Source of the DNA: Marinilabilia rubra
Lineage (GTDB): Bacteria > Bacteroidota > Bacteroidia > Bacteroidales > Marinilabiliaceae
Direction of reading: 5' to 3'
DNA: 64,000 bases
NCBI RefSeq assembly: GCF_003121985.1
Contig: NZ_QEWP01000003.1
Coordinates: 62,001-126,000 of the forward strand
Part shown: positions 42,681 to 59,583 of the stretch, piece by piece
How the letters are laid out: every line of letters begins with the position of its first letter
How positions within the stretch are numbered: position 1 is the first letter of the stretch
Position numbers and translations under genes: made by a program
Notes under the pieces: model-generated
Database searches by the model: none
What the model saw: the letters and a program-made list of their open reading frames with translations, nothing else
Told to the model about the DNA's origin: nothing

Positions 42681-44126
42681 TTATAATTGCCCGGCCAGCG
42701 CAGTCGCGCGTGTTCTTAGTTTGTAGCCCCAGAACGCTATAAAACTAAGGACGGCAATACTTACGCCGCTTAGTATTGATATGGAATAACTCAGCCCAAA
42801 TCCTTCCGGTGCAAACAAAAGGTAAGAAGTGATTACGCTGGTCATAAATACTGCCGGAATTAGTGTAATCCAGAACAATTTATTTTCGCTGGCTAGATAA
42901 ACCGTAATAGCCCATAAAACCACGGTTGCCAGGGTTTGATTCGACCAGGCAAAAAACCGCCAGATGATGCTAAAATCGATTTGTGTCAGCAGAAATCCGG
43001 CAACAAACAACGGAATACTCACCAACAAACGATTTCTGATCGGGCCTTGTTTGTAATTCAAAAAATCGGCTACAATTAAACGGGCACTGCGGAAAGCTGT
43101 ATCGCCGGATGTTATTGGCGCTGCAACAACTCCCAGCAATGCAAGCAGTCCTCCAAACTTCCCCAATAGAGAATTCGATATTTCGTTCACGATAAAAGCT
43201 GCATTTCCGTTATTGGTGGTCATCATATCGCTCAATTCTCTGATTCCACCAAAAAAACTCATGCTGATAGCTGCCCAAATCAGTGCCACAACTCCTTCGG
43301 TTATCATTGCCCCGTAAAATACCCTTCGTCCGTATTTCTCGTTGGTTATACACCGCGCCATTAATGGCGACTGGGTAGCATGAAAACCCGAAATGGCACC
43401 GCAGGCAATGGTAATAAACAACATTGGGAAAATCGGAAATTTATCAGAATTGATATGATGATTTTTTATTTCCAAGATATTGAGCTCGGGAATATGGTAG
43501 CCCTTGTAGAAAAGTGCCACAATCAGTCCGACTGCCATAAAAACCAAAGCAAATCCAAAAACAGGATATATTTTCCCGATTACTTTATCGATGGGTAGCA
43601 TAGTGGCAAGCAGGTAGTAACCAAAAATCACCCAAATCCAAATATTGATGGATGCAAAACCCGCTGTGAATCCGGACAGAATTTTTGCCGGCCCCAGGAT
43701 AAAAACAGTTCCTACCATCAGCATCAGCACAACCGTAAAAGCTCGCATAAACTGTTTGGTTCCTTTGCCTAGGTATTTTCCTACAATTTCGGTAATACTG
43801 AGCCCTCCGTGTTTTAACGAAAGCATTCCGGACAAGTAATCGTGCACAGCTCCTGCAAAAACAGATCCCAATACAATCCAAATGAAAGCAACAGGCCCCC
43901 ACATGGCACCGGCAACTGCCCCAAAAATAGGCCCCAGTCCGGCAATATTTAAGAACTGAATTAAAAAGATCCGCCACCATGACAGCGGCATATAATCCAC
44001 TCCATCGTTCATGGAATAAGCCGGAGTTTGCCGGGTTGAATTTACCTGAACAACTTTTTCTATAAACCGGGAGTAAGTAAAATAACCAAGCAGTAAAACT
44101 GCCAACGAAATAAAAAAAGTAATCAT
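42681..44126 (-). CDS. cstA: Carbon starvation protein A (CstA-family carrier)
   Basis: This 481-residue inner-membrane protein has about 13 hydrophobic segments. CstA hallmarks include an early LSWWRIFLIQFLNIAGLGPIF-like region, GAVAGAMWGP and VHDYLSGMLSLKHGG. The length fits the short Bacteroidota form, not the roughly 700-residue enterobacterial form. CstA-family carriers import pyruvate or peptides on starvation. It lies inside the glycan locus in the same orientation, 220 bp after the gene at 44347, but a direct role in glycan use is not shown. Confidence 0.92.
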   Translation of the reverse strand: MITFFISLAVLLLGYFTYSRFIEKVVQVNSTRQTPAYSMNDGVDYMPLSWWRIFLIQFLNIAGLGPIFGAVAGAMWGPVAFIWIVLGSVFAGAVHDYLSGMLSLKHGGLSITEIVGKYLGKGTKQFMRAFTVVLMLMVGTVFILGPAKILSGFTAGFASINIWIWVIFGYYLLATMLPIDKVIGKIYPVFGFALVFMAVGLIVALFYKGYHIPELNILEIKNHHINSDKFPIFPMLFITIACGAISGFHATQSPLMARCITNEKYGRRVFYGAMITEGVVALIWAAISMSFFGGIRELSDMMTTNNGNAAFIVNEISNSLLGKFGGLLALLGVVAAPITSGDTAFRSARLIVADFLNYKQGPIRNRLLVSIPLFVAGFLLTQIDFSIIWRFFAWSNQTLATVVLWAITVYLASENKLFWITLIPAVFMTSVITSYLLFAPEGFGLSYSISILSGVSIAVLSFIAFWGYKLRTRATALAGQL

Positions 44127-45339: not shown

Positions 45340-48132
45340 TTAATAGACTCTTACCTCAAATATTCTTGCAGCTTTGTCCCCCCAGGTTTTCGTTACAAGT
45401 ACACGAATTTTGTTCGCCTTTACAGGATCCATTTTATGAATACGGAGCCGCTGGATATTGCCGGTCTCTTTCGCAATGGTTTTCCATGCTCCGTCAATCA
45501 GTGCCTGAATTTCGTAATCACTCACACGCTCCGGTACGTTCAACTCCTTAAACCATGTACGGTTCATATTGGTGTCAAACACCAGGCGTACCTCGCTAAT
45601 CGTTTGTGTTTTGTCCCATGCTAACTGTACCCATTGCGGCAAGGTTTCTTCAGGGTTGGACATCCACATATTTACAGAACCATCGTTGAGCCAATACCTG
45701 GTTTTTCCATTGATTACATTACTTGCCCCAAAATCGAAGCGGTCGTCTAACGATGGAATTGCATAGAAATTGGGAACATACATAGTATGTTCAATTTCCA
45801 TACCTTCCTCTACCTTATAACTGCGAATATTTGGCAAGATTTGTCGTTTGGTTTTCCAAAACACCCTAGGCGCATTTCCCTCAAATCTTATCACGAAGAA
45901 CTCTCTTTTTATTTCACGGTTTACCTTTACCGGCAATGCGCCCTTGAAGCCTGCCGGAATGGTAACAGGTATTTTTACTACAGGGCTTAAGTTTTCAATA
46001 CTCTCGTTTTCCGAAGATGTAGCGATAGTTAATATCACATCGACATCCTTACCCTGCTGATTATCTAGCATAAAATGTAGTGTGCCCAGGGCCTGCAATT
46101 GTCCGTTGGCACATTTAACTGTAGTTGTAGTAAGCTTAACATGTTTCGAGTCCTTCGTCAAAGCATATTCGCAATTGTAGTCGACAGGATCCATTTTGCT
46201 TGATGCCGTGGCCGTTGCTTTTAGTGCCAGGTCTGCTGCGTCTTCATTTTTTATTCGCGGGATGAACTGGTCTTCTTTAAGCAGTCGCTGCTGTAACTCT
46301 TTAATTTTTTTCTGACCTACGCCACGCGGAGTAAGATCGTATTCAGCACACATTGCCGCTGCTGTTCCGGCTGCCTGCCCTAAGGTGGCACAAGTCATCA
46401 TGATACGTGTGGTACCCAGTGCATAATGGCTCACACTTACATTGCGTCCGGCCATTAGCAGATTGGAAATGTTTTTCGAGTAAATGCAGCGATACGGAAT
46501 ACCGCCTCCCATGCGTACACTATAATTACAGTCAAACGGTCCTTCCTTGCCCGAAAAGATACCTTTGGGGTGATGGATGTCTGTAGGCCAGCCATAGTGA
46601 GTAATAATATCATCGAACCAGCGACCTTCTATGGCCACATCATTCCAGGTTAGTATGTAGTCGCCTATCAGACGGCGCGACTCGCGTCTGCCAAGAAAGA
46701 TACCTACATTGTTCAGTTTTACATTTTCGGTATCGTCCTTTTTCTTCCAGTGGTTCTTTAGGTAATCAGCATAGGCATAGGTAATGCGGAGCTGATAGTC
46801 GCGCGCAAATTCACCCTCCCAAACATCATCGACCGTGCCGGGATACTCCACCCACCACGGACGAATATTGTAACCGATAATATTACGATGAAGAGGAATC
46901 GGCAAATTAACCGCCCAATTGGGAGCTGTGTACGCTACTTTTTTATCCGTTTGAACCATAAATGGTCCGCCCTCGCTGTTCAAACTGGCACTCATGGTGA
47001 TTTTGTCAGCTACTTCAGGGGCCGGTTTTTCGTTAAACTCGCTACGAGCCTCTCGACCAACCCTGAATTCCGCACCTGCATAATAGCCAAGCCACCCATC
47101 GCCAGTACAATCGATGAATGTGCCACCGAAAAATTCTGCCCTTGTACCATCAAGGGTATGTAAAGCCTTTACTCCTTTGATCTTTTCATCATTCTCCATG
47201 ATAACGCCATCTACACGCGTGTTCAGAAAAAGACTCAGGTTGGGTTCTGCTTCGGCAAGCTGCATGTAGGCGGCACTAAAACTACCTTTTTTATTATCAC
47301 GTGAGGTAATAAGCATTGCCTCGTTAATGATACCACCCTCAACACTGAAGGCATTTTTATTGCCGGCACCATTCATGTTCACACTGAACTCGTCGCTGCT
47401 ATTGCCACCAAGTACCGGACGGTCCTGAATCAATGCAGTCCGGGCCCCCTGACGGGCAGCAGCGATTGCGGCAGATGTACCGGCCGGCCCACCTCCAACA
47501 ACAATTACATCAAATCCATCATGCTTCACCGGTTTAAGTTCAAGTTCTGTGTATTTGGCACGTGCAGCTACCATTTCGTCCTGCTTCGGAGGAACAAAGC
47601 TGGCATCTTTGGTCAATACCAGCACATCACAACGACCGTAATAACCGGTTTCATCAATCAAACGCAGTTCAACATTTCCAGCCTTTAACCTAAATACACC
47701 AGCCTTTTGCCATGTCCATTTATCGCTTTCATCATTTCCGCATAAGGCACTCATTTTATCACCAACTTTCACTTTGAATGTGCCGGGTGTTTTTTCCGGA
47801 TGCCAGTTACGGGAACGAATCCACAGCGTATATTTGCCGCCTTCTGACAATGTTACGTTGGTTACTGCATCCGCCACCGGTGTACCCATACCTGGAGCCA
47901 ACAGATAACCTGACCCCATCAGATAAATAAATTGCGTATCGTGATACCATCCGCCGTAATCGGCAAAGTCTTCGGCATCGACCCAAAGTGTACCGGACAC
48001 CACGTCGCGTATTTCCGGTCGGCTCGTCTTTTTTAATCCTTCTTTTACATGGGCATCTGGATACTGTGCAAACATTGCAACAGACAATAGCAATCCTGCT
48101 ATTATTACAATTATCTTATTCATTTTTGACAT
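45340..48132 (-). CDS. Exported FAD-dependent oxidoreductase with C-terminal discoidin-like domain
   Basis: This 930-residue protein has a signal peptide ending MFAQ. An N-terminal CBM-like beta domain (about 45-175, with VDAEDFADYGGW) precedes an FAD_oxidored core whose dinucleotide motif is GGGPAG at 213-218, followed by GGNSSDEFSVNMNGAG. The C-terminus (about 790-930) resembles an F5/8 type C domain. A periplasmic or surface sugar oxidoreductase is inferred from the sulfatases and glycosidases around it. The substrate is unknown. An alternative start is the ATG three codons in. Confidence 0.82.
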   Translation of the reverse strand: MSKMNKIIVIIAGLLLSVAMFAQYPDAHVKEGLKKTSRPEIRDVVSGTLWVDAEDFADYGGWYHDTQFIYLMGSGYLLAPGMGTPVADAVTNVTLSEGGKYTLWIRSRNWHPEKTPGTFKVKVGDKMSALCGNDESDKWTWQKAGVFRLKAGNVELRLIDETGYYGRCDVLVLTKDASFVPPKQDEMVAARAKYTELELKPVKHDGFDVIVVGGGPAGTSAAIAAARQGARTALIQDRPVLGGNSSDEFSVNMNGAGNKNAFSVEGGIINEAMLITSRDNKKGSFSAAYMQLAEAEPNLSLFLNTRVDGVIMENDEKIKGVKALHTLDGTRAEFFGGTFIDCTGDGWLGYYAGAEFRVGREARSEFNEKPAPEVADKITMSASLNSEGGPFMVQTDKKVAYTAPNWAVNLPIPLHRNIIGYNIRPWWVEYPGTVDDVWEGEFARDYQLRITYAYADYLKNHWKKKDDTENVKLNNVGIFLGRRESRRLIGDYILTWNDVAIEGRWFDDIITHYGWPTDIHHPKGIFSGKEGPFDCNYSVRMGGGIPYRCIYSKNISNLLMAGRNVSVSHYALGTTRIMMTCATLGQAAGTAAAMCAEYDLTPRGVGQKKIKELQQRLLKEDQFIPRIKNEDAADLALKATATASSKMDPVDYNCEYALTKDSKHVKLTTTTVKCANGQLQALGTLHFMLDNQQGKDVDVILTIATSSENESIENLSPVVKIPVTIPAGFKGALPVKVNREIKREFFVIRFEGNAPRVFWKTKRQILPNIRSYKVEEGMEIEHTMYVPNFYAIPSLDDRFDFGASNVINGKTRYWLNDGSVNMWMSNPEETLPQWVQLAWDKTQTISEVRLVFDTNMNRTWFKELNVPERVSDYEIQALIDGAWKTIAKETGNIQRLRIHKMDPVKANKIRVLVTKTWGDKAARIFEVRVY

Positions 48133-48671: not shown

Positions 48672-48902
48672 AGGGAGCGCTGAAAAACGCATATTTTATT
48701 AAATATTAAACTTTTAAACAAAACAAACACTTAGGTGCACGGTTATTTTGCATTACAATCAGATTTCTTTGCACATAACCATATGAAAATCGCTAATCAA
48801 AAGAACAAAATTTACTTCAACGCCCAAATCTCGAAGTATTTCTATACTCCTTCGATTGGTCGACTTGTAAATTTTGCCCTTTTGACTTTTTCAGCAGTCC
48901 CT
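48672..48902. mobile_element. MITE-like element or IS remnant
   Basis: AGGGAGCGCTGAAAAACGC (48672-48690) and the reverse complement of 48884-48902 (AGGGACTGCTGAAAAAGTC) agree at 15 of 19 positions and flank 231 bp. ATTT adjoins both ends as a possible 4-bp target duplication. Ends of the form GGGACTGCTGAAAAAGTC are typical of bacterial insertion sequences. The interior has only a 41-codon frame (48783-48908, + strand) with no recognisable transposase motif. Confidence 0.55.
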
Positions 48903-49629
48903 ATTTAGTACTCTCAATTAACTTAATTGATTTTTGAGCAAAGCGCTCACCCATTTTAATATACCCTTCTGCCGACATGTGCAAATCATTCTTTATTTCT
49001 TTTCCTCTTCTATTTACTCCATCGTTAAGATCATCAGTATTAATCCAATCAAAGCGGGGATTAGATTCAGCTACTTTTACCTGAATATCTCGTATCATAG
49101 TCCAATGAATGTATTTTTCATTCAGCATATCAAAATCACTTAACCTTCCGATAATAAAGTTGACATCCTTTCTATCTAAATCCTGACATAGCTGATTATA
49201 AAGTCCCAATAAACTTTCTTCATACACCCCTCCATGCTTTTCCCTTGCATCTCTTTCTCCTTGCATCCAGATAAAACTAACAGTAGCAAAATTTTCTTTC
49301 TCTACTTCCGGATAAACCTTCAGCATTAAAGAATCATATAAACATGGATCGGCTTTGGGTAAATCTCCTTGTGCTGGTTTCCAGTTTCTATACCAGCGCC
49401 TAATAGATTGACTTCCCATGGCGTACTTTACAACACTCACACTTTCATTACCCAATTTTTGTTTTAGAATTGGTTCAAAAGATTCTTTTTCATTTAACCT
49501 AGCCATATTAGATTGACCAGATAAAATAAATAAGTGCTTCTCTTCACAAACTGATTTATCTAATTTTGTTATTACATTACACGAGACGCTTAACAACAGC
49601 GTTAAAACATAAAAAATAAATCTAGTCAT
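48901..49629 (-). CDS. SGNH carbohydrate esterase (sialate O-acetylesterase-like) lipoprotein
   Basis: This 242-residue protein has a signal ending LLSVSC, so Cys17 is a probable lipidation site. Catalytic residues are S40 in LSGQSNMA and D215/H217 in NDLHMSAEGY. WMQGERDA is the block III-like motif of the SASA family. It probably removes acetyl or other ester groups from the target glycan. It lies 1 nt downstream of a sulfatase gene. The TAG stop coincides with the inverted repeat of the MITE-like element, but the domain itself looks complete. Confidence 0.83.
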   Translation of the reverse strand: MTRFIFYVLTLLLSVSCNVITKLDKSVCEEKHLFILSGQSNMARLNEKESFEPILKQKLGNESVSVVKYAMGSQSIRRWYRNWKPAQGDLPKADPCLYDSLMLKVYPEVEKENFATVSFIWMQGERDAREKHGGVYEESLLGLYNQLCQDLDRKDVNFIIGRLSDFDMLNEKYIHWTMIRDIQVKVAESNPRFDWINTDDLNDGVNRRGKEIKNDLHMSAEGYIKMGERFAQKSIKLIESTK

Positions 49630-49630
49630 A

Positions 49631-51046
49631 CTATTCTTTACTTTCTTTTTTCCATGATTTTAATGCTTTTGAATTAGCAACTCTTACTTCCCTATTTAAG
49701 TACAAATCTTCATGAATCATCCAGGTAATTGTATCCCATGTATGTCCCTCTGTCCAAAGAGGCCTCATTATTTGTTCCTCCCAGTTAGAAACTTTTTGCT
49801 GCATAACATTTAACACTTCTGGCTTTGCCTGAGTTAAATCCTGATCTTCGGAGAGATTTGTTTTCAGATTATATAATCTATATCCAAGCCCTTCAACACG
49901 TATCATCTTATAATCAGCGTATCGCATAGCTGCCATCTTATCCTTTCGCCAAAATAATTCATCATGGGGATTCCCTTCTACTTTCTTTTTTAGAAAAGGA
50001 AGTAGATTTACACCATCTAAAGGCTTATTCGTCACAATCTTACTTCCTGCAACCGCTACTGATGTGGCAAATATGTCAAGAGAAGAAGTCAAACCATTGT
50101 ACTTTCCTTTCTTCAGTTCTTTAGGCCAATGCATAAAAAAGTTAACCCTAATTCCTCCTTCATACTTATTTCCTTTGAATCCTTTAAGCGGATAGTTAAT
50201 TGATTCATTATTGTGAGCTCCTCCATTATCGCTTAAGAAAAATATTAATGTATTATCCAATAATCCCTCCCTCTTCAGTTTATCTGTAATTTGTCCCACT
50301 GCCCGATCTAAGGCCCATGTCATAGCTGCCAATTTTTGACGGGGATGTCCTTCAAAAAGGTCTAAATCCTCCTGGGTTGCTTCCATTGGAGTATGAACAG
50401 CATTAGGAGCCCAGTACATAAAGAATGGATTTTCTTTATTCCGGTCAATAAACTCTACAGCCTTATCTCCAAGCCGATCTGTAAGATATCCTTCAAAATT
50501 AGTAAACTGGTCATTTTCACGGATAGAATGTGAATGCCCTGGTTTATCTTGTTCACTATTTGAAAAATAATGACGCCCACCTGATAGAAATCCCCAATAA
50601 TAATCAAAACCTCTGGCATTGGGTTTATATGCTTCTCCATCACCTAAATGCCATTTTCCAAATGCTGCAGTTTTATAACCTGCCTGCTTCATTGCTTCTG
50701 CGATGGTAGTCTCATTTAAATCTACACCTGAAAAATCATGTGAAGGGTTACATTCAAAACCAAATCGTTGCTGATACCGACCTGTCATTAATCCTGCTCT
50801 ACTTGGCCCGCATACCGATGCTGTAACATGCGCATCAGTAAAAACAATCCCATTGTTGGCCAACTCATCAATATTAGGAGTTTTTAAATCTTCACTCCCT
50901 GCAAAACCAAAGTCAGAATAACCGGCGTCATCTATCAATAAAACAATAACATTGGGTACATCAGTTTTTTCTTGCTTAGACTGTTGACAACCTACTGATG
51001 AAAAAAACAATACAATAAATCCCAATACGAAACTTAAGCTCTTCAT
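49631..51046 (-). CDS. Family S1 sulfatase, lipoprotein
   Basis: I choose the ATG at 51046 over an upstream GTG because it gives a standard lipoprotein signal (Cys20 in SSVGCQQ) and sits 1 nt after the preceding stop. The 471-residue protein has metal-binding DDAG near the N-terminus, and C79 in the sulfatase motif C-G-P-S-R followed by TGRYQQRFGF. The Cys must be converted to formylglycine by a maturase not present in the window. SDNGGAHNN gives the second metal-site motif. It hydrolyses sulfate esters; the position on the sugar cannot be told from sequence alone. Confidence 0.93.
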   Translation of the reverse strand: MKSLSFVLGFIVLFFSSVGCQQSKQEKTDVPNVIVLLIDDAGYSDFGFAGSEDLKTPNIDELANNGIVFTDAHVTASVCGPSRAGLMTGRYQQRFGFECNPSHDFSGVDLNETTIAEAMKQAGYKTAAFGKWHLGDGEAYKPNARGFDYYWGFLSGGRHYFSNSEQDKPGHSHSIRENDQFTNFEGYLTDRLGDKAVEFIDRNKENPFFMYWAPNAVHTPMEATQEDLDLFEGHPRQKLAAMTWALDRAVGQITDKLKREGLLDNTLIFFLSDNGGAHNNESINYPLKGFKGNKYEGGIRVNFFMHWPKELKKGKYNGLTSSLDIFATSVAVAGSKIVTNKPLDGVNLLPFLKKKVEGNPHDELFWRKDKMAAMRYADYKMIRVEGLGYRLYNLKTNLSEDQDLTQAKPEVLNVMQQKVSNWEEQIMRPLWTEGHTWDTITWMIHEDLYLNREVRVANSKALKSWKKESKE

Positions 51047-51047
51047 T

Positions 51048-52568
51048 TTATCTTGTTTTTTCACTATTAAATATTCGTTCTAATTCAGCCTGCATCTTTT
51101 TTAGTTGCTTCTTATTTTCTGAAGCCAGATTCTTTCGTTCACGCTTATCTTTTGATAAATCGTACAATTCAGGATAATCAACAATGCCTGAATCAATACC
51201 TTTAACAAAGTTTATCCAGTTTTTTGCGCTTGCCTTAGAAGGATGAATGTATTTGTAATTACCCATCCGAAGTCCATATGAAAAGGCCTCTTCCAGCATT
51301 ACTTCACGTCCGTCATGATTTCGGCCTAAAAATGCTTCCAGATGGTTTTCACTGTCCACAGCTTCTTTCTCCTTTAAAGGATGATTCAACAAGGCAGCAA
51401 TCGACGCATATAAGTCAATGTGATTCATTAGCGCATCACTGGTACCTGGCTGAATGGTGCCCGGCCAATAAGTAATGGTGGGCACACGTGTGCCGGCTTC
51501 ATAGGCACTGTATTTTCCTCCCCGGAATGGGCCGGCCGGTTTATGATTTCCTATTCTCTCCCTTGCCTGATCGGCATAACCATCATCCAGGACGGGGCCA
51601 TTGTCGCTTGAGAAAACAATCAGTGTATTATCATCTATTCCCAATTCTTCCAAATGGTCTATCAATTGACCGGTAACCCAGTCCATCTGCACAATGGCAT
51701 CGCCACGCACTCCCATGTCTGTGGCTCCATCGAAACGGTGATCTGGTAATCGGGGAACATGAATATCGTGAAAGGCAAAATACAGGAAGAACGGCTTATC
51801 CTGATTTTTATCTATAAACGCGCGCGCTTTCTCCAACATTTGGTAAGGTACTGTTTCATCGCGCCACCGGGCAGCATTCCCACCCGACATGTAACCAATT
51901 CGGCTCACACCGTTAACTATGGTTTTAGAATGCTCCCGGTCTGCACCATATCTAAGCAGATCATAATTATCAAGACCAGTAGGATCATTGCCCACTTTAT
52001 TCTTATAATTAACTTCAATGGGGTCTTTTTTATCCAAACCTACCACATGGTGATTTTCGACAAGAACACAAGGCACTCGGTCACCAGTAGCCGGAATCAG
52101 GTAACTGTAGTCAAATCCGATTTCCAGAGGCCCCGGAGATACCTTTCCATTCCAGTCCACATCGCCATCGCCCAATCCCAAATGCCATTTACCAACTACA
52201 GCGGTTGCGTAACCGATTTCTTTTAGCATACCTGGTAACGTTGGCATATCTGTTTTAATCAGCATAGGTGCATCACCTGGTAAAATAGCCGCTTTGTCGC
52301 GAAAAGCATAACGTCCGGTTAATAACGAAAACCGCGATGGAGTGCAGGTGGCAGCAGAACAATGTCCATCAGTAAACCTCATACCTCCTGCAGCCAGTTT
52401 ATCAACATTAGGCGTTTGCACTTCGGTAGCCCCATAACAACTTAAATCGCCATAGCCAAGATCATCAACATAGATGATGACAATATTGGGATTTGTATTC
52501 TTTTCCTGTGCATCGACTGCACTCCATGTTAAAAGCACAGCCAGTATAGTAGTTAAAATATTTTTCAT
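51048..52568 (-). CDS. Family S1 sulfatase
   Basis: The ATG at 52568 is chosen over a TTG one codon upstream, giving 506 residues with a signal peptide ending AVDAQ. It has DDLGYGDL, the modified-Cys motif C75-T-P-S-R followed by LLTGRYAFR, KWHLGLG, and SSDNGPV near the second metal site. The architecture is that of arylsulfatase-like family S1 enzymes in marine glycan loci. It is 9 nt downstream of the sulfatase-GH16 fusion and 1 nt upstream of the next sulfatase, so all three are probably co-translated. Confidence 0.94.
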   Translation of the reverse strand: MKNILTTILAVLLTWSAVDAQEKNTNPNIVIIYVDDLGYGDLSCYGATEVQTPNVDKLAAGGMRFTDGHCSAATCTPSRFSLLTGRYAFRDKAAILPGDAPMLIKTDMPTLPGMLKEIGYATAVVGKWHLGLGDGDVDWNGKVSPGPLEIGFDYSYLIPATGDRVPCVLVENHHVVGLDKKDPIEVNYKNKVGNDPTGLDNYDLLRYGADREHSKTIVNGVSRIGYMSGGNAARWRDETVPYQMLEKARAFIDKNQDKPFFLYFAFHDIHVPRLPDHRFDGATDMGVRGDAIVQMDWVTGQLIDHLEELGIDDNTLIVFSSDNGPVLDDGYADQARERIGNHKPAGPFRGGKYSAYEAGTRVPTITYWPGTIQPGTSDALMNHIDLYASIAALLNHPLKEKEAVDSENHLEAFLGRNHDGREVMLEEAFSYGLRMGNYKYIHPSKASAKNWINFVKGIDSGIVDYPELYDLSKDKRERKNLASENKKQLKKMQAELERIFNSEKTR

Positions 52569-52577
52569 CAATTTCGT

Positions 52578-54794
52578 TTATTTTTTGGTTTGATAAACCC
52601 TCACATAATCTACTTCGTAGGTTCGGGGGAATGTGGTTTGTGAAGGATTTCCTCCATTAGCTCCAATAGCCAGGTTTAAAAGAATATATTGTGGTTGATG
52701 AAATGGGTTAGAACCATCAGCATTAATGGTTTTACTCAAATCTATTTCATTTAACAATTCATCATCCAGGTATAACCTGATATATTCCTCAGTCCACTCC
52801 ATTTTCCAAATATGGAATCTCTGTGCCCAATCAGGTTGTTTTTCTATAAAATAGCTTAATGGAATCTTTTCTGAATCCCAAACTGGTTTCATCTTGCCGT
52901 TTGCCCAAGCCGCATTGGCCAATAGTTTTGCTTCTCCCTTATGACGGTAATACTCCATCTGATCTACTTCACCATTAGCAGGCCAACGTTTATCTATACC
53001 CAAAGTCCAGATAGCAGGCCACATTCCCATGCTTGTATCAATACGTGCCCGAACTTCGAGGATTCCATATTTAAAAGAAAATTTATCCTTTGTTTTAATA
53101 CAGGCCGAGGTGTATTCTGCATATTTTCTATTCTCTTTCCAACGTTGACTTTTCTTTTTATAAGCATCGTTTTTAACCTGCTCTCTTCTACCCTCTATAA
53201 CTAAAACACCTTCACTTATATTGGCATTATCTTCCTGATACCATTGCAGTTCTTCATTACGTACAAATCCATTTTCGTACGACCAAAAGCTTTCATCCGG
53301 TTTTCCATCTTTGTCAAATTCATCAGACCAAATCAGTTGATATCCGTCCGGAATTTCAGGACTTAAGTTATCTGGCTTATAAGGATTTACCATTACAAAT
53401 CGATCAGGATTTAATTGATTGTATTCTTTCCCCTGCGTTAAACCCAAAAACAAAGGATCTTTCATCTCCTTATTCCATAACATATAAGTATCCTTCAATA
53501 ATTGATATCTTCCTCCTTCAAGAGGTAACGAATTGTTTTCACTGATATCCTCTTTCAGGTTATAAAATTCATCAACCTCAGATCTATACTTCACAACTTT
53601 ATCATCTCCACTTACGATAGCATAATCATCATAATCATACATACGCCAGTATAAGTATTTATGCGGTTCATCTGTTTTTTCTCCTGTTAAATAAGGTAAA
53701 ACATTTACTCCATCTAATTCATTTTTTGATTTTGCTGATGCATAATGTACCGCAGTTGCAAACATGTCTAAAGACAGAACTGGCTTTTCATAGATCATAC
53801 CTTTAGGAATAGTACCCGGCCACTGCATAGCAAAAGGCACATGTATACCACCTTCGTATAAACTGCTTTTTCCATCTCGTAACACACCATTATCAGAAGC
53901 ATTTTTTTCCTCAGGCCCTCCATTATCCGACAAGAAAAACACCATCGTTTTATCTGATATTCCAAGCTCCTCAAGTTTATCTAACAAAAGTCCAACACCA
54001 TCATCCACAGCACTTACCATGGCAGCATAAGTTTTCCTTTTTTTATCTTTGATATGCTTAAATCTACTTAAATATTTTTCTGTAGCCTGCAGTGGCCCGT
54101 GTGGTGCATTGTACGCCAAATACATAAAAAAGGGACTATTGGCCTTTCGGTCAACAAATGAAACAGCTTCACGACTAAGTGCATCTGTAATATATTCCTT
54201 CTCATCCACTCTACCATTGTTGCGCATTAACTTCGTAAAATAACCATCGTACTGTCTTTTAATTTCTGAAACATCATTTAAAGTCCATTCTTCAGGGAAG
54301 TACTGATGACCGCCACTTAAAAAACCGAAGAACTCATCGAATCCTCTTCTCAACGGATATTGACTTTTATGTGATCCCAAATGCCATTTGCCCAATGCCA
54401 TACTCGAGTAACCGCTGCGCCCCAGCACAGTGGCCAATGTTTCTTCTGTTGATGGTAAACCTTGCAAGGTATCGTTGGGTGCCAGAAGCGGATTACGTCC
54501 AAAACCAAAACGATCCTGATAACGCCCGGTTATTATTCCGGCGCGACTGGGACCGCATACTGAATAAGTTACATAGCCATTCGTAAATTTCACTCCATTA
54601 TCAGCTATGCGGTCAATATTAGGTGTTGGAATATCCTTACATCCATTAAAGCCAACATCGCCATACCCCAGATCATCGGCTAATATGATAATAACATTGG
54701 GTAAATCTACTTTATTGTTTTGCGCTTTTACCGGCAAAAGTGCATAAAGCGACACTGCCAATAGCACAAGTACTTTTGAGAATATACTTTTCAT
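52578..54794 (-). CDS. Sulfatase-GH16 fusion enzyme
   Basis: This 738-residue protein has a signal peptide ending PVKAQ. Residues about 30-460 are an S1 sulfatase: DDLGYGDVGFNG, C80 in SVCGPSRAG, GKWHLG and SDNGGPEE. Residues about 483-738 are a GH16 domain: it begins YQLIWSDEFD, has the ExDxxE catalytic signature GEVDQMEYY, and ends with EVDYVRVYQ. Both catalytic centres look complete. It would couple removal of sulfate with endo-cleavage of a beta-galactan or beta-glucan. The frame is continuous and there is a short linker. I know of no standard name for this fusion. Confidence 0.93.
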   Translation of the reverse strand: MKSIFSKVLVLLAVSLYALLPVKAQNNKVDLPNVIIILADDLGYGDVGFNGCKDIPTPNIDRIADNGVKFTNGYVTYSVCGPSRAGIITGRYQDRFGFGRNPLLAPNDTLQGLPSTEETLATVLGRSGYSSMALGKWHLGSHKSQYPLRRGFDEFFGFLSGGHQYFPEEWTLNDVSEIKRQYDGYFTKLMRNNGRVDEKEYITDALSREAVSFVDRKANSPFFMYLAYNAPHGPLQATEKYLSRFKHIKDKKRKTYAAMVSAVDDGVGLLLDKLEELGISDKTMVFFLSDNGGPEEKNASDNGVLRDGKSSLYEGGIHVPFAMQWPGTIPKGMIYEKPVLSLDMFATAVHYASAKSKNELDGVNVLPYLTGEKTDEPHKYLYWRMYDYDDYAIVSGDDKVVKYRSEVDEFYNLKEDISENNSLPLEGGRYQLLKDTYMLWNKEMKDPLFLGLTQGKEYNQLNPDRFVMVNPYKPDNLSPEIPDGYQLIWSDEFDKDGKPDESFWSYENGFVRNEELQWYQEDNANISEGVLVIEGRREQVKNDAYKKKSQRWKENRKYAEYTSACIKTKDKFSFKYGILEVRARIDTSMGMWPAIWTLGIDKRWPANGEVDQMEYYRHKGEAKLLANAAWANGKMKPVWDSEKIPLSYFIEKQPDWAQRFHIWKMEWTEEYIRLYLDDELLNEIDLSKTINADGSNPFHQPQYILLNLAIGANGGNPSQTTFPRTYEVDYVRVYQTKK

Positions 54795-54908: not shown

Positions 54909-56381
54909 TTATTTTTTTACCTGACGACTTTTCAGGTGCTTCTCCCACCATGCCAAATAATCTTCATCTGAAACATCAACCGGTAGGTTACGCTTCCTTT
55001 TCCAAACCTTATCCCTCTTAGCCATCTGCTTCGTCCAGTATTCTATTTCCTTACCATCTTCCGGATAGGTGGCCACATCTTCATGCTTTAACCACTCATC
55101 CAACTTGAAGCCTAACTCCTTCTTAATCTGAATATTATCCTCACTTGCAGCCAAATTATTTAACTCATAAGGATCATTTTCAAGATCATACAACTCTTCA
55201 GCCGGACGAAAATCACTCATAAACGATAATTGCTCAGGACGCAGCTTGTCTTGCGACTTTAGCACTTCCATCAATACAAGGGTTGGATACTTATTACGCT
55301 TATATGCATTATACTGAGTATAGGGCCGGTCCGTATAAAAATTACGTATGTATTTATACTTTTTAGTTCTGATTGCCCGGATGCGATCCACCGTTTCGTC
55401 GCGTCTGTCTCGCATGGTATACAGTTCGGCTCGCGGAGTGTGTTCTCCTAAAATATTGTTTCCTCTAATGTGTTCAGGCACCTCGATTCCAGCTAACTTT
55501 AAAGAAGTTGCTGAAAGATCAATATTACTTACCAGCTCGTCTCTGACTTCACCTGCAAATTGGTTGTTTGGATATCTGATCAATAATGGAGTATTTGTGC
55601 CTCCATCGTATAAAAACTGTTTGTTACGAACCATTGGTCTTCCCTGGTCACCTACAATAAAAATATAGGTATTATCCATCAAGCCATCTTGCTCCAATGC
55701 AGCCAGAAGCTGACCTATCTCCTGATCAACCACCTGAATGGTCTCCAGGTAAAAAGCCCAATCCTGACGGGCTACCCAGTGGTCGGGTAAATATGGAGGT
55801 AATTCCACCTTACTTTCGTCGATGGGATTAATGGTATCCTGAGTAAACGGACGGTGGGGAAAATGAATTTGAACCTGCCCGAAGAATGGCTGCTCCTCCT
55901 GACGTTGACTCCAATGCGTACCGTCATAGATTTCGTAATCGGTTGTGAAGTTATAGTCTGTTTTTCCCGATTTGTCTTTTGAACCAAAGCGGTTATTAAA
56001 GGTAAAATAGCCTGCTTCTTCAAAATACTCGGTAATTACCTTCACACTATCAGGCAGTGGCAGCATGGACTCTGGCCTTGTACGGTGCTGATGACAGTTG
56101 ATACTAACAGGGTACATACCTGTTACCATGGAAGAGCGGCTGGATGAGCAAACAGCTGTTACGGTATGGCAATTCTCAAACCGAATGGACTGACCAGCAA
56201 ATTCATCAAGAATTGGCGTTTGAATAAGTGGTGTTCCATAGCATCCCAGATCTGTCCCCAGATCATCGCAAACAATCCAAAGTATATTTGGTTTTGTTAC
56301 AGTTTCTTTTTTCTGATTAACCGGGTTGCAGCCAATCAGTAATATAAAGAAAGCTGCAATTAGCAAATGAATCTTGTTCAT
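54909..56381 (-). CDS. Family S1 sulfatase (N-sulfoglucosamine sulfohydrolase-like), lipoprotein
   Basis: This 490-residue protein has a lipoprotein signal (Cys18 in LLIGCNP). The modified-Cys motif is C78-S-S-S-R instead of the usual C-x-P-x-R; this variant occurs in heparan N-sulfatase-like S1 enzymes. CDDLGTDLGCYG gives the first metal ligands and VGDQGRP the second. The C-terminus carries a basic tail. It lies 64 bp after the GH2 gene in the same orientation. The actual substrate in this locus is more likely a sulfated algal sugar than heparan. Confidence 0.9.
   Translation of the reverse strand: MNKIHLLIAAFFILLIGCNPVNQKKETVTKPNILWIVCDDLGTDLGCYGTPLIQTPILDEFAGQSIRFENCHTVTAVCSSSRSSMVTGMYPVSINCHQHRTRPESMLPLPDSVKVITEYFEEAGYFTFNNRFGSKDKSGKTDYNFTTDYEIYDGTHWSQRQEEQPFFGQVQIHFPHRPFTQDTINPIDESKVELPPYLPDHWVARQDWAFYLETIQVVDQEIGQLLAALEQDGLMDNTYIFIVGDQGRPMVRNKQFLYDGGTNTPLLIRYPNNQFAGEVRDELVSNIDLSATSLKLAGIEVPEHIRGNNILGEHTPRAELYTMRDRRDETVDRIRAIRTKKYKYIRNFYTDRPYTQYNAYKRNKYPTLVLMEVLKSQDKLRPEQLSFMSDFRPAEELYDLENDPYELNNLAASEDNIQIKKELGFKLDEWLKHEDVATYPEDGKEIEYWTKQMAKRDKVWKRKRNLPVDVSDEDYLAWWEKHLKSRQVKK

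Positions 56382-56445: not shown

Positions 56446-59583
<3,138 letters not shown>

Follow-up and report, generated by a model that had tools for sequence, protein, structure and literature searches.

Sulfate groups on algal polymers can obstruct endo-enzymes, and for carrageenan the published answer is two separate proteins: in Pseudoalteromonas, GH16B acts only after the sulfatase S1_19A has removed the 4-sulfate (PMC6923384, in the passages available). A sulfatase and a glycoside hydrolase acting sequentially within one chain have also been described, in the ulvan enzyme S1_25-GH78, which works on rhamnose at the non-reducing end (passages of PMC8360166). For sulfated beta-1,3-galactan of the green-algal kind, one described system was found in the open-licence literature, that of B. 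plebeius, in which a sulfatase precedes breakdown of the galactan. According to the passages available of PMC8406133, this bacterium also grows on sulfated Codium AGP, and wine AGP is cut by GH43_24, a subfamily containing exo-beta-1,3-galactanases only, exclusively in combination with the sulfatase BpS1_8, which is active on Codium AGP as well.

The stretch of DNA analysed here (64,000 nucleotides of Marinilabilia rubra, henceforth referred to as the window) encodes a sulfatase fused to a GH16 domain. As in the Pseudoalteromonas pair, an S1_19 4-sulfatase would enable a GH16 endo-enzyme, but there the two are distinct proteins on carrageenan and here they form a single chain. The ulvan enzyme shares the principle of a sulfatase plus glycoside hydrolase in one chain, although both of its families differ from those of the fusion, whereas in the passages of PMC8406133 the B. 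plebeius S1_8 is a separate, predicted periplasmic protein and no fusion is reported. PfS1_19A and PfS1_19B (6BIA, 6PRM) have the same sulfatase module, formylglycine motif and catalytic and metal residues, but are separate enzymes of carrageenan loci, while the sulfatase described here is joined to GH16 in another gene context. The solved GH16 relatives have the fold and the E-x-D-x-x-E motif, and perhaps three spaced tryptophans, in common with the GH16 half, but none was seen with a sulfatase module and the best of them is only about 33% identical. Sulfatase–glycoside hydrolase fusions (S1_25-GH78) and S1_19 with GH16 as separate proteins are already known; what would be new is this pair in one chain. 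The preliminary description knew of no named enzyme with this layout, which holds for the exact pair among the matches listed from the open-licence literature (the passages available of PMC12549532, PMC6952198 and PMC13168452 likewise contain no sulfatase-GH16 fusion), and has to be narrowed in view of the S1_25-GH78 fusion in print.

The fusion gene and its locus

The reading frame runs from an ATG through 738 codons without an internal stop. Pfam places Sulfatase at residues 32–352 (E 9.8e-62, whole protein) and GH16 at 557–731 (E 3.6e-15) of a single chain, and the matches to solved structures cover residues 28–459 and 480–737, respectively. A second copy on a different contig of this genome and the recurrence of the layout in seven other genomes confirm the fusion and speak against an artefact of assembly or frame. 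The preliminary description had reported a one-chain fusion with both catalytic signatures intact, and both points stand: twelve positions of the sulfatase half (D40, D41, C80, P82, S83, R84, K136, H138, H232, D290, N291 and K309), which we take, in part from the alignment with 6PRM, to have catalytic or metal roles, are identical in all nine fusions, as are the GH16 acids E609, D611 and E614. Its claim of export also gains ground, the N-terminus reading as a type I signal peptide that lacks a lipobox Cys, so that the protein is probably secreted. A T9SS tail is absent from the window copy (Pfam) and present in the copy of genome G581, and the cell location of the two may accordingly differ.

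Table 1. Features of the fusion gene and neighbouring genes (window positions).
Feature	Position	Strand	Basis
Sulfatase-GH16 fusion gene, 738 aa	52578..54794	-	ORF, Pfam, nine copies across eight genomes
Probable type I signal peptide, residues 1-24	54723..54794	-	Sequence reading
Sulfatase module, S1_19-like, about residues 28-465	53400..54713	-	Pfam Sulfatase, best PDB sequences
Formylglycine motif C80-G-P-S-R84	54543..54557	-	Sequence reading; C, P, S and R invariant in 9/9 copies
Spacer, residues 467-483	53346..53396	-	Length 17 in 9/9 fusions
GH16 module, GH16_3-like, residues 484-737	52584..53345	-	Pfam, AlphaFold2 model, fold matches
GH16 catalytic motif E609-V-D611-Q-M-E614	52953..52970	-	E, D, E identical in 9/9 copies
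Sulfatase S_B (C-T-P-S-R), 9 bp downstream of fusion	51048..52568	-	ORF, Pfam
Sulfatase S_C (C-G-P-S-R)	49631..51046	-	Pfam
SASA-type carbohydrate esterase	48901..49629	-	Pfam PF03629
Sulfatase S_D (C-S-S-S-R, in place of C-x-P-S-R)	54909..56381	-	Pfam; motif from translation
GH2 beta-galactosidase, LacZ type	56446..59574	-	Pfam; NCBIfam NF052611 above cut-off
GH16-like secreted protein no. 2, 1212 aa	60093..63731	-	GH16-like N-terminus, three CBM96, T9SS tail

Six pairs of fusion copies gave dN of 0.01–0.26 and dS of at least 0.15 (often saturated) over both halves; for the window copy and that of genome G034, dN/dS was 0.17/1.98 (sulfatase half) and 0.18/2.06 (GH16 half). Only the direction of these values counts, because dS was saturated in at least one half for four of the six pairs, but low dN/dS across both halves fits selection on each of them, and both look active. 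The residue following the catalytic Asp (Q612, 52959–52961, minus strand) is Gln in seven of the nine fusions and V or L in two; the equivalent position is I, V, L or M in the listed motifs of unfused relatives.

The fusion belongs to a minus-strand run in which the GH2 gene and S_D are followed by the fusion 114 bp on, and this by S_B, S_C and the SASA esterase at distances of 9, 1 and 1 bp. About 9 to 24 kb beyond the right edge of the window, this contig carries two TonB-receptor/SusD pairs together with a hybrid two-component regulator, whose proximity to the enzyme run places the fusion in a polysaccharide utilization locus. The N-terminus of the 1212-aa protein is a laminarinase-like GH16 with the motif EIDCPE, a part missing from the Pfam scan at E 1e-5. 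Beside the sulfatase genes, Pfam also identified an FAD-dependent oxidoreductase with an F5/8 type C domain (45340–48132, minus strand) and a 481-aa CstA-like protein (42681–44126, minus strand). Past the window, the same genome carries an apparently truncated gene for a 160-aa sulfatase fragment (L055:1314–1796).

The sulfatase half

The seven best PDB sequences for the sulfatase half (6PRM, 6PSM, 6BIA, 6B0K, 6B0J, 9HH3 and 9HH2; E 5e-103 to 1e-91) are all S1_19 or carrageenan 4-sulfate sulfatases, and a gap of some 27 orders of magnitude separates them from the next match, the S1_16 enzyme 9FO1 (E 1.6e-64). The S1_19 label comes from the passages available of PMC9096561 for the first five and from the structure titles for 9HH2 and 9HH3; the four S1_19 rows seen in a table of that paper are all 4-sulfo-D-galactose sulfatases. 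With its C-x-P-S-R motif, its catalytic and metal residues and closest solved relatives that are S1_19 members, the fused sulfatase is, as far as such relationships tell, of the S1_19 type. A match to the FGE-type maturase family PF03781 was found in the window genome (E 1.9e-88), and the anaerobic sulfatase maturase family gave no match above the cut-off in the same genome.

The GH16 half

An AlphaFold2 model of the GH16 half built from 47 sequences reached a pLDDT of 96.8, and the mucin O-glycanase 6T2N (33–34% identity) ranked first by sequence, by Foldseek and by VIA. The VIA Z score was 31.7 for 6T2N, about 27–31 for laminarinases and 23.6 for the best carrageenase, 9XL7; the Foldseek E value was 4.6e-25 for 6T2N and 1.7e-15 or weaker for carrageenases; and phmmer scored 6T2N at 147 bits and 9IJC, a beta,kappa-carrageenase by its title, at 24.8. 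By sequence and model, the half is nearest to GH16_3 enzymes (6T2N and laminarinases), and we rejected it as a carrageenase, the solved members of that activity ranking below both 6T2N and the laminarinases by sequence and fold. The E-x-D-x-x-E motif matched in 97 of 98 rows. W592, W596 and W604 are identical in all nine fusions, and equating them with the three spaced tryptophans of the GH16_3 motif (passages of PMC7419316) is a reading only. In the same passages the characterised GH16_3 members are mostly beta-1,3/4-glucan enzymes, and two Akkermansia enzymes, one of which we infer to be 6T2N, are placed within GH16_3 near characterised endo-beta-1,3-galactanases. The gene context described below suggests that the GH16 half could likewise be an endo-beta-1,3-galactanase. 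An endo-galactanase is reportedly the subject of a 2018 study by Cartmell.

Distribution and origin of the fusion

The nine fusions come from the window, a second copy in its own genome, six relatives and one member of another class of the phylum. The second copy is 67–68% identical to that of the window and has similar surroundings, a sulfatase/GH2 cluster plus a GH43. Within the family we counted eight copies in seven of 71 genomes. In an order sample of 393 genomes and a class sample of 395, full-length matches were confined to the window's own genome, the family relatives with fusions having fallen outside both; a phylum sample of 395 genomes added a single fusion, that of G581 (1097 aa, with an extra Fib_succ_major domain and the T9SS sorting tail). 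There is overlap among these three samples, in each of which no more than two candidates were scored per genome.

A single junction event for all fusions is favoured by the 17-residue spacer found in all nine copies and the motif P-x-x-x-D within it in eight. Four of the eight unfused S1_19 rows listed stop no more than about 10 residues past the (D/T)RF that precedes the spacer. The trees drew on sulfatase matches spanning 380 columns or more with 38% identity or higher and on GH16 matches spanning 220 columns or more, with near-copies removed, and the fusion label was clustered on both. With the GH16 half (35 rows), a single fusion clade was not rejected (p-AU 0.308, with L061, cut by a contig end, held in the group); with the sulfatase half (51 rows), it was weakly rejected (p-AU 0.0305), G581 being set apart and three unfused rows standing beside the remaining eight fusions. 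The window genome's second copy falls with G581 and L061, and not with the other seven, in the GH16 trees. L061 (Balneolaceae) encodes the GH16 nearest to that of G581, which starts at a contig end and is followed by what reads as a LacI-type regulator and then by galK and galT; it may be another fusion copy.

Three further proteins from relatives (L042, 734 aa; L043, 737 aa; L044, 948 aa) resembled the fusion in length and were discarded, Pfam finding GH16 in none of them. The first two (L042:8946–11150, L043:8914–11127) are S1_19-like sulfatases with Big_2 and a T9SS tail (Pfam), and the third, also S1_19-like, combines a T9SS tail with a long stretch without a Pfam family. A 407-aa open frame on G036:C316, 66% identical, proved to be a sulfatase with no match to the GH16 half on its 16-kb contig.

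Gene context of the fusions and of their GH16 relatives

GH2 genes lie near all nine fusions, the eight outside the window encoding homologs 40–86% identical to the window's, and an S_C homolog (48–72% identity) is found near seven of these eight (eight of nine counting the window). A GH43_24-like gene accompanies six of the nine, and the window locus is not one of the six. This label rests on Pfam GH43 for scanned proteins, similarity to these and a motif which we take to be that of GH43_24, with no subfamily profile. Both GH43_24-like genes of the window genome are on contig C2, one of them beside the second fusion; the six stretches around its seven other GH16 genes contained none. At G581, galT and galK adjoin the fusion, and nearby are galM, galE and a sodium symporter, as well as what reads as a LacI-type regulator, which together with the context of the fusion loci makes galactose the probable product. 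A comparable series exists unfused in Belliella (L059), where SusC, SusD, GH16, S1 (with 55% identity to the sulfatase half of the fusion), an unlabelled gene, GH43 and two more S1 follow one another.

We also examined the best 80 of at least 582 GH16 relatives found among 84,980 species genomes. No sulfatase fusion was present in the 74 of these 80 loci with a matched ORF, some loci starting at a contig end. A GH43_24-like gene occurred in 16 of the 80, against about 0.1 expected in their 1.2 Mb from a background of 19 genes (23 match rows, pieces merged) in 61 genomes (237 Mb). That background comes from the window's relatives rather than the genomes carrying the 80 loci, and raising it tenfold leaves an excess (P about 1e-14).

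Proposed substrate and mechanism

We consider it probable, if by no great distance, that the fusion is a two-headed enzyme on 4-sulfated beta-1,3-galactan (type II, from Codium-type green algae or sulfated arabinogalactan proteins). Formylglycine maturation of C80 would prime the S1_19-type sulfatase, which would take the 4-sulfate off 3-linked beta-D-galactose; the GH16_3-type domain, set off from it by the 17-residue spacer, would next cut the bared beta-1,3-galactan endo-wise. The oligosaccharides would be finished by the GH43_24-like exo-galactanase, the GH2 beta-galactosidase and other sulfatases, and the galactose released would enter the Leloir pathway. The target of S1_19 in kappa-carrageenan is a residue of the same kind, 3-linked beta-Gal-4-sulfate, and Codium galactan consists of 3-linked beta-D-galactose with sulfate mainly at C-4 (passages of PMC3093253), so that an enzyme joining a 4-sulfatase to an endo-beta-1,3-galactanase would suit this polymer. 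The proposal of the preliminary description that both halves serve one polymer finds support in S1_19 and GH16 enzymes already pairing on carrageenan as separate proteins (PMC6923384, same passages); the single step that it envisaged is less well supported. Several observations count against the beta-1,3-galactan reading: the absence of GH43 among the 27 window proteins scanned and of a GH43_24-like match in the stretches examined around G460 and G581, the 64 of the 80 best GH16 loci without a GH43_24-like gene, the presence of GalT or GalK in only three of the 80, the fold of the GH16 half, which would also suit beta-1,3-glucan cleavage given that most of its solved relatives are laminarinases, and the carrageenan activity of the S1_19 enzymes in the table rows seen in PMC9096561. 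That S1_8 handles sulfated AGP in B. plebeius (passages of PMC8406133) counts against an S1_19 enzyme doing so on this galactan.

The preliminary description had named sulfated galactans, with red-algal polymers as the substrates to assay, and the class stands as the best one. Action on a carrageenan-type red-algal galactan (kappa, beta/kappa or furcellaran), with 4-desulfation by S1_19 followed by a GH16 cut in one chain, would agree with the nearest solved sulfatases, all carrageenan S1_19 enzymes, and with the dependence of Pseudoalteromonas GH16B on prior S1_19A treatment; we nevertheless hold it unlikely, since the GH16 half is far nearer to GH16_3 than to the solved carrageenases, which are the red-algal enzymes that the comparison covered, and the neighbours at loci of the fusions and of GH16 relatives include GH43_24-like and Leloir genes. 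A similarly small chance falls to the GH16 half being a beta-1,3-glucanase (laminarinase), with the sulfatase serving a sulfated or mixed glucan: laminarinases are numerous among the fold matches and characterised GH16_3 members mostly act on beta-1,3/4-glucans, but the constant GH2, the GH43_24-like genes near six fusions and the galactose genes around G581 speak otherwise, and GH3, GH17 and GH30 are absent from the 27 window proteins scanned, which cover part of a locus that extends past the window. Very improbable, in spite of 6T2N being the best single match, is an O-glycanase-like activity on sulfated glycoprotein glycans (poly-LacNAc) from which the sulfatase would remove galactose sulfates; the identity to 6T2N is low, and no sialidase, fucosidase or hexosaminidase family is represented among those 27 proteins.

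It is a different matter whether the two halves cooperate. They may both be active yet independent, the fusion providing co-secretion in a fixed ratio and no kinetic gain, which is compatible with any of the substrates above and comes close to, though below, an even chance. The unfused Belliella series and the lack of sulfatase fusions around the best GH16 relatives agree with this, as does the poor whole-chain model (pLDDT 59, pTM 0.53, 8 alignment rows), on which no claim is built; the constant spacer length hints at a geometry instead, but common descent explains it equally well. The stronger form of the beta-1,3-galactan reading, an endo-beta-1,3-galactanase that desulfates and then cuts 4-sulfated beta-1,3-galactan of green algae within one chain and in which the fixed spacer would pass the desulfated backbone from one site to the other, and which would be the signature of an undescribed Codium-type pathway, is put forward only tentatively and seems to us rather doubtful. 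With a natural fusion and a constant spacer at hand, the value of coupling both steps is directly testable, and the fusion could serve as a marker gene for the breakdown of sulfated beta-1,3-galactan and possibly as a tool enzyme in the analysis of its structure.

The same GH16 clade contains another natural two-headed layout. In seven of the 16 relative loci with a GH43_24-like gene (L071, L076, L096, L102, L105, L106 and L124), this gene and the GH16 form one ORF, to which a GH88 is added in L102.
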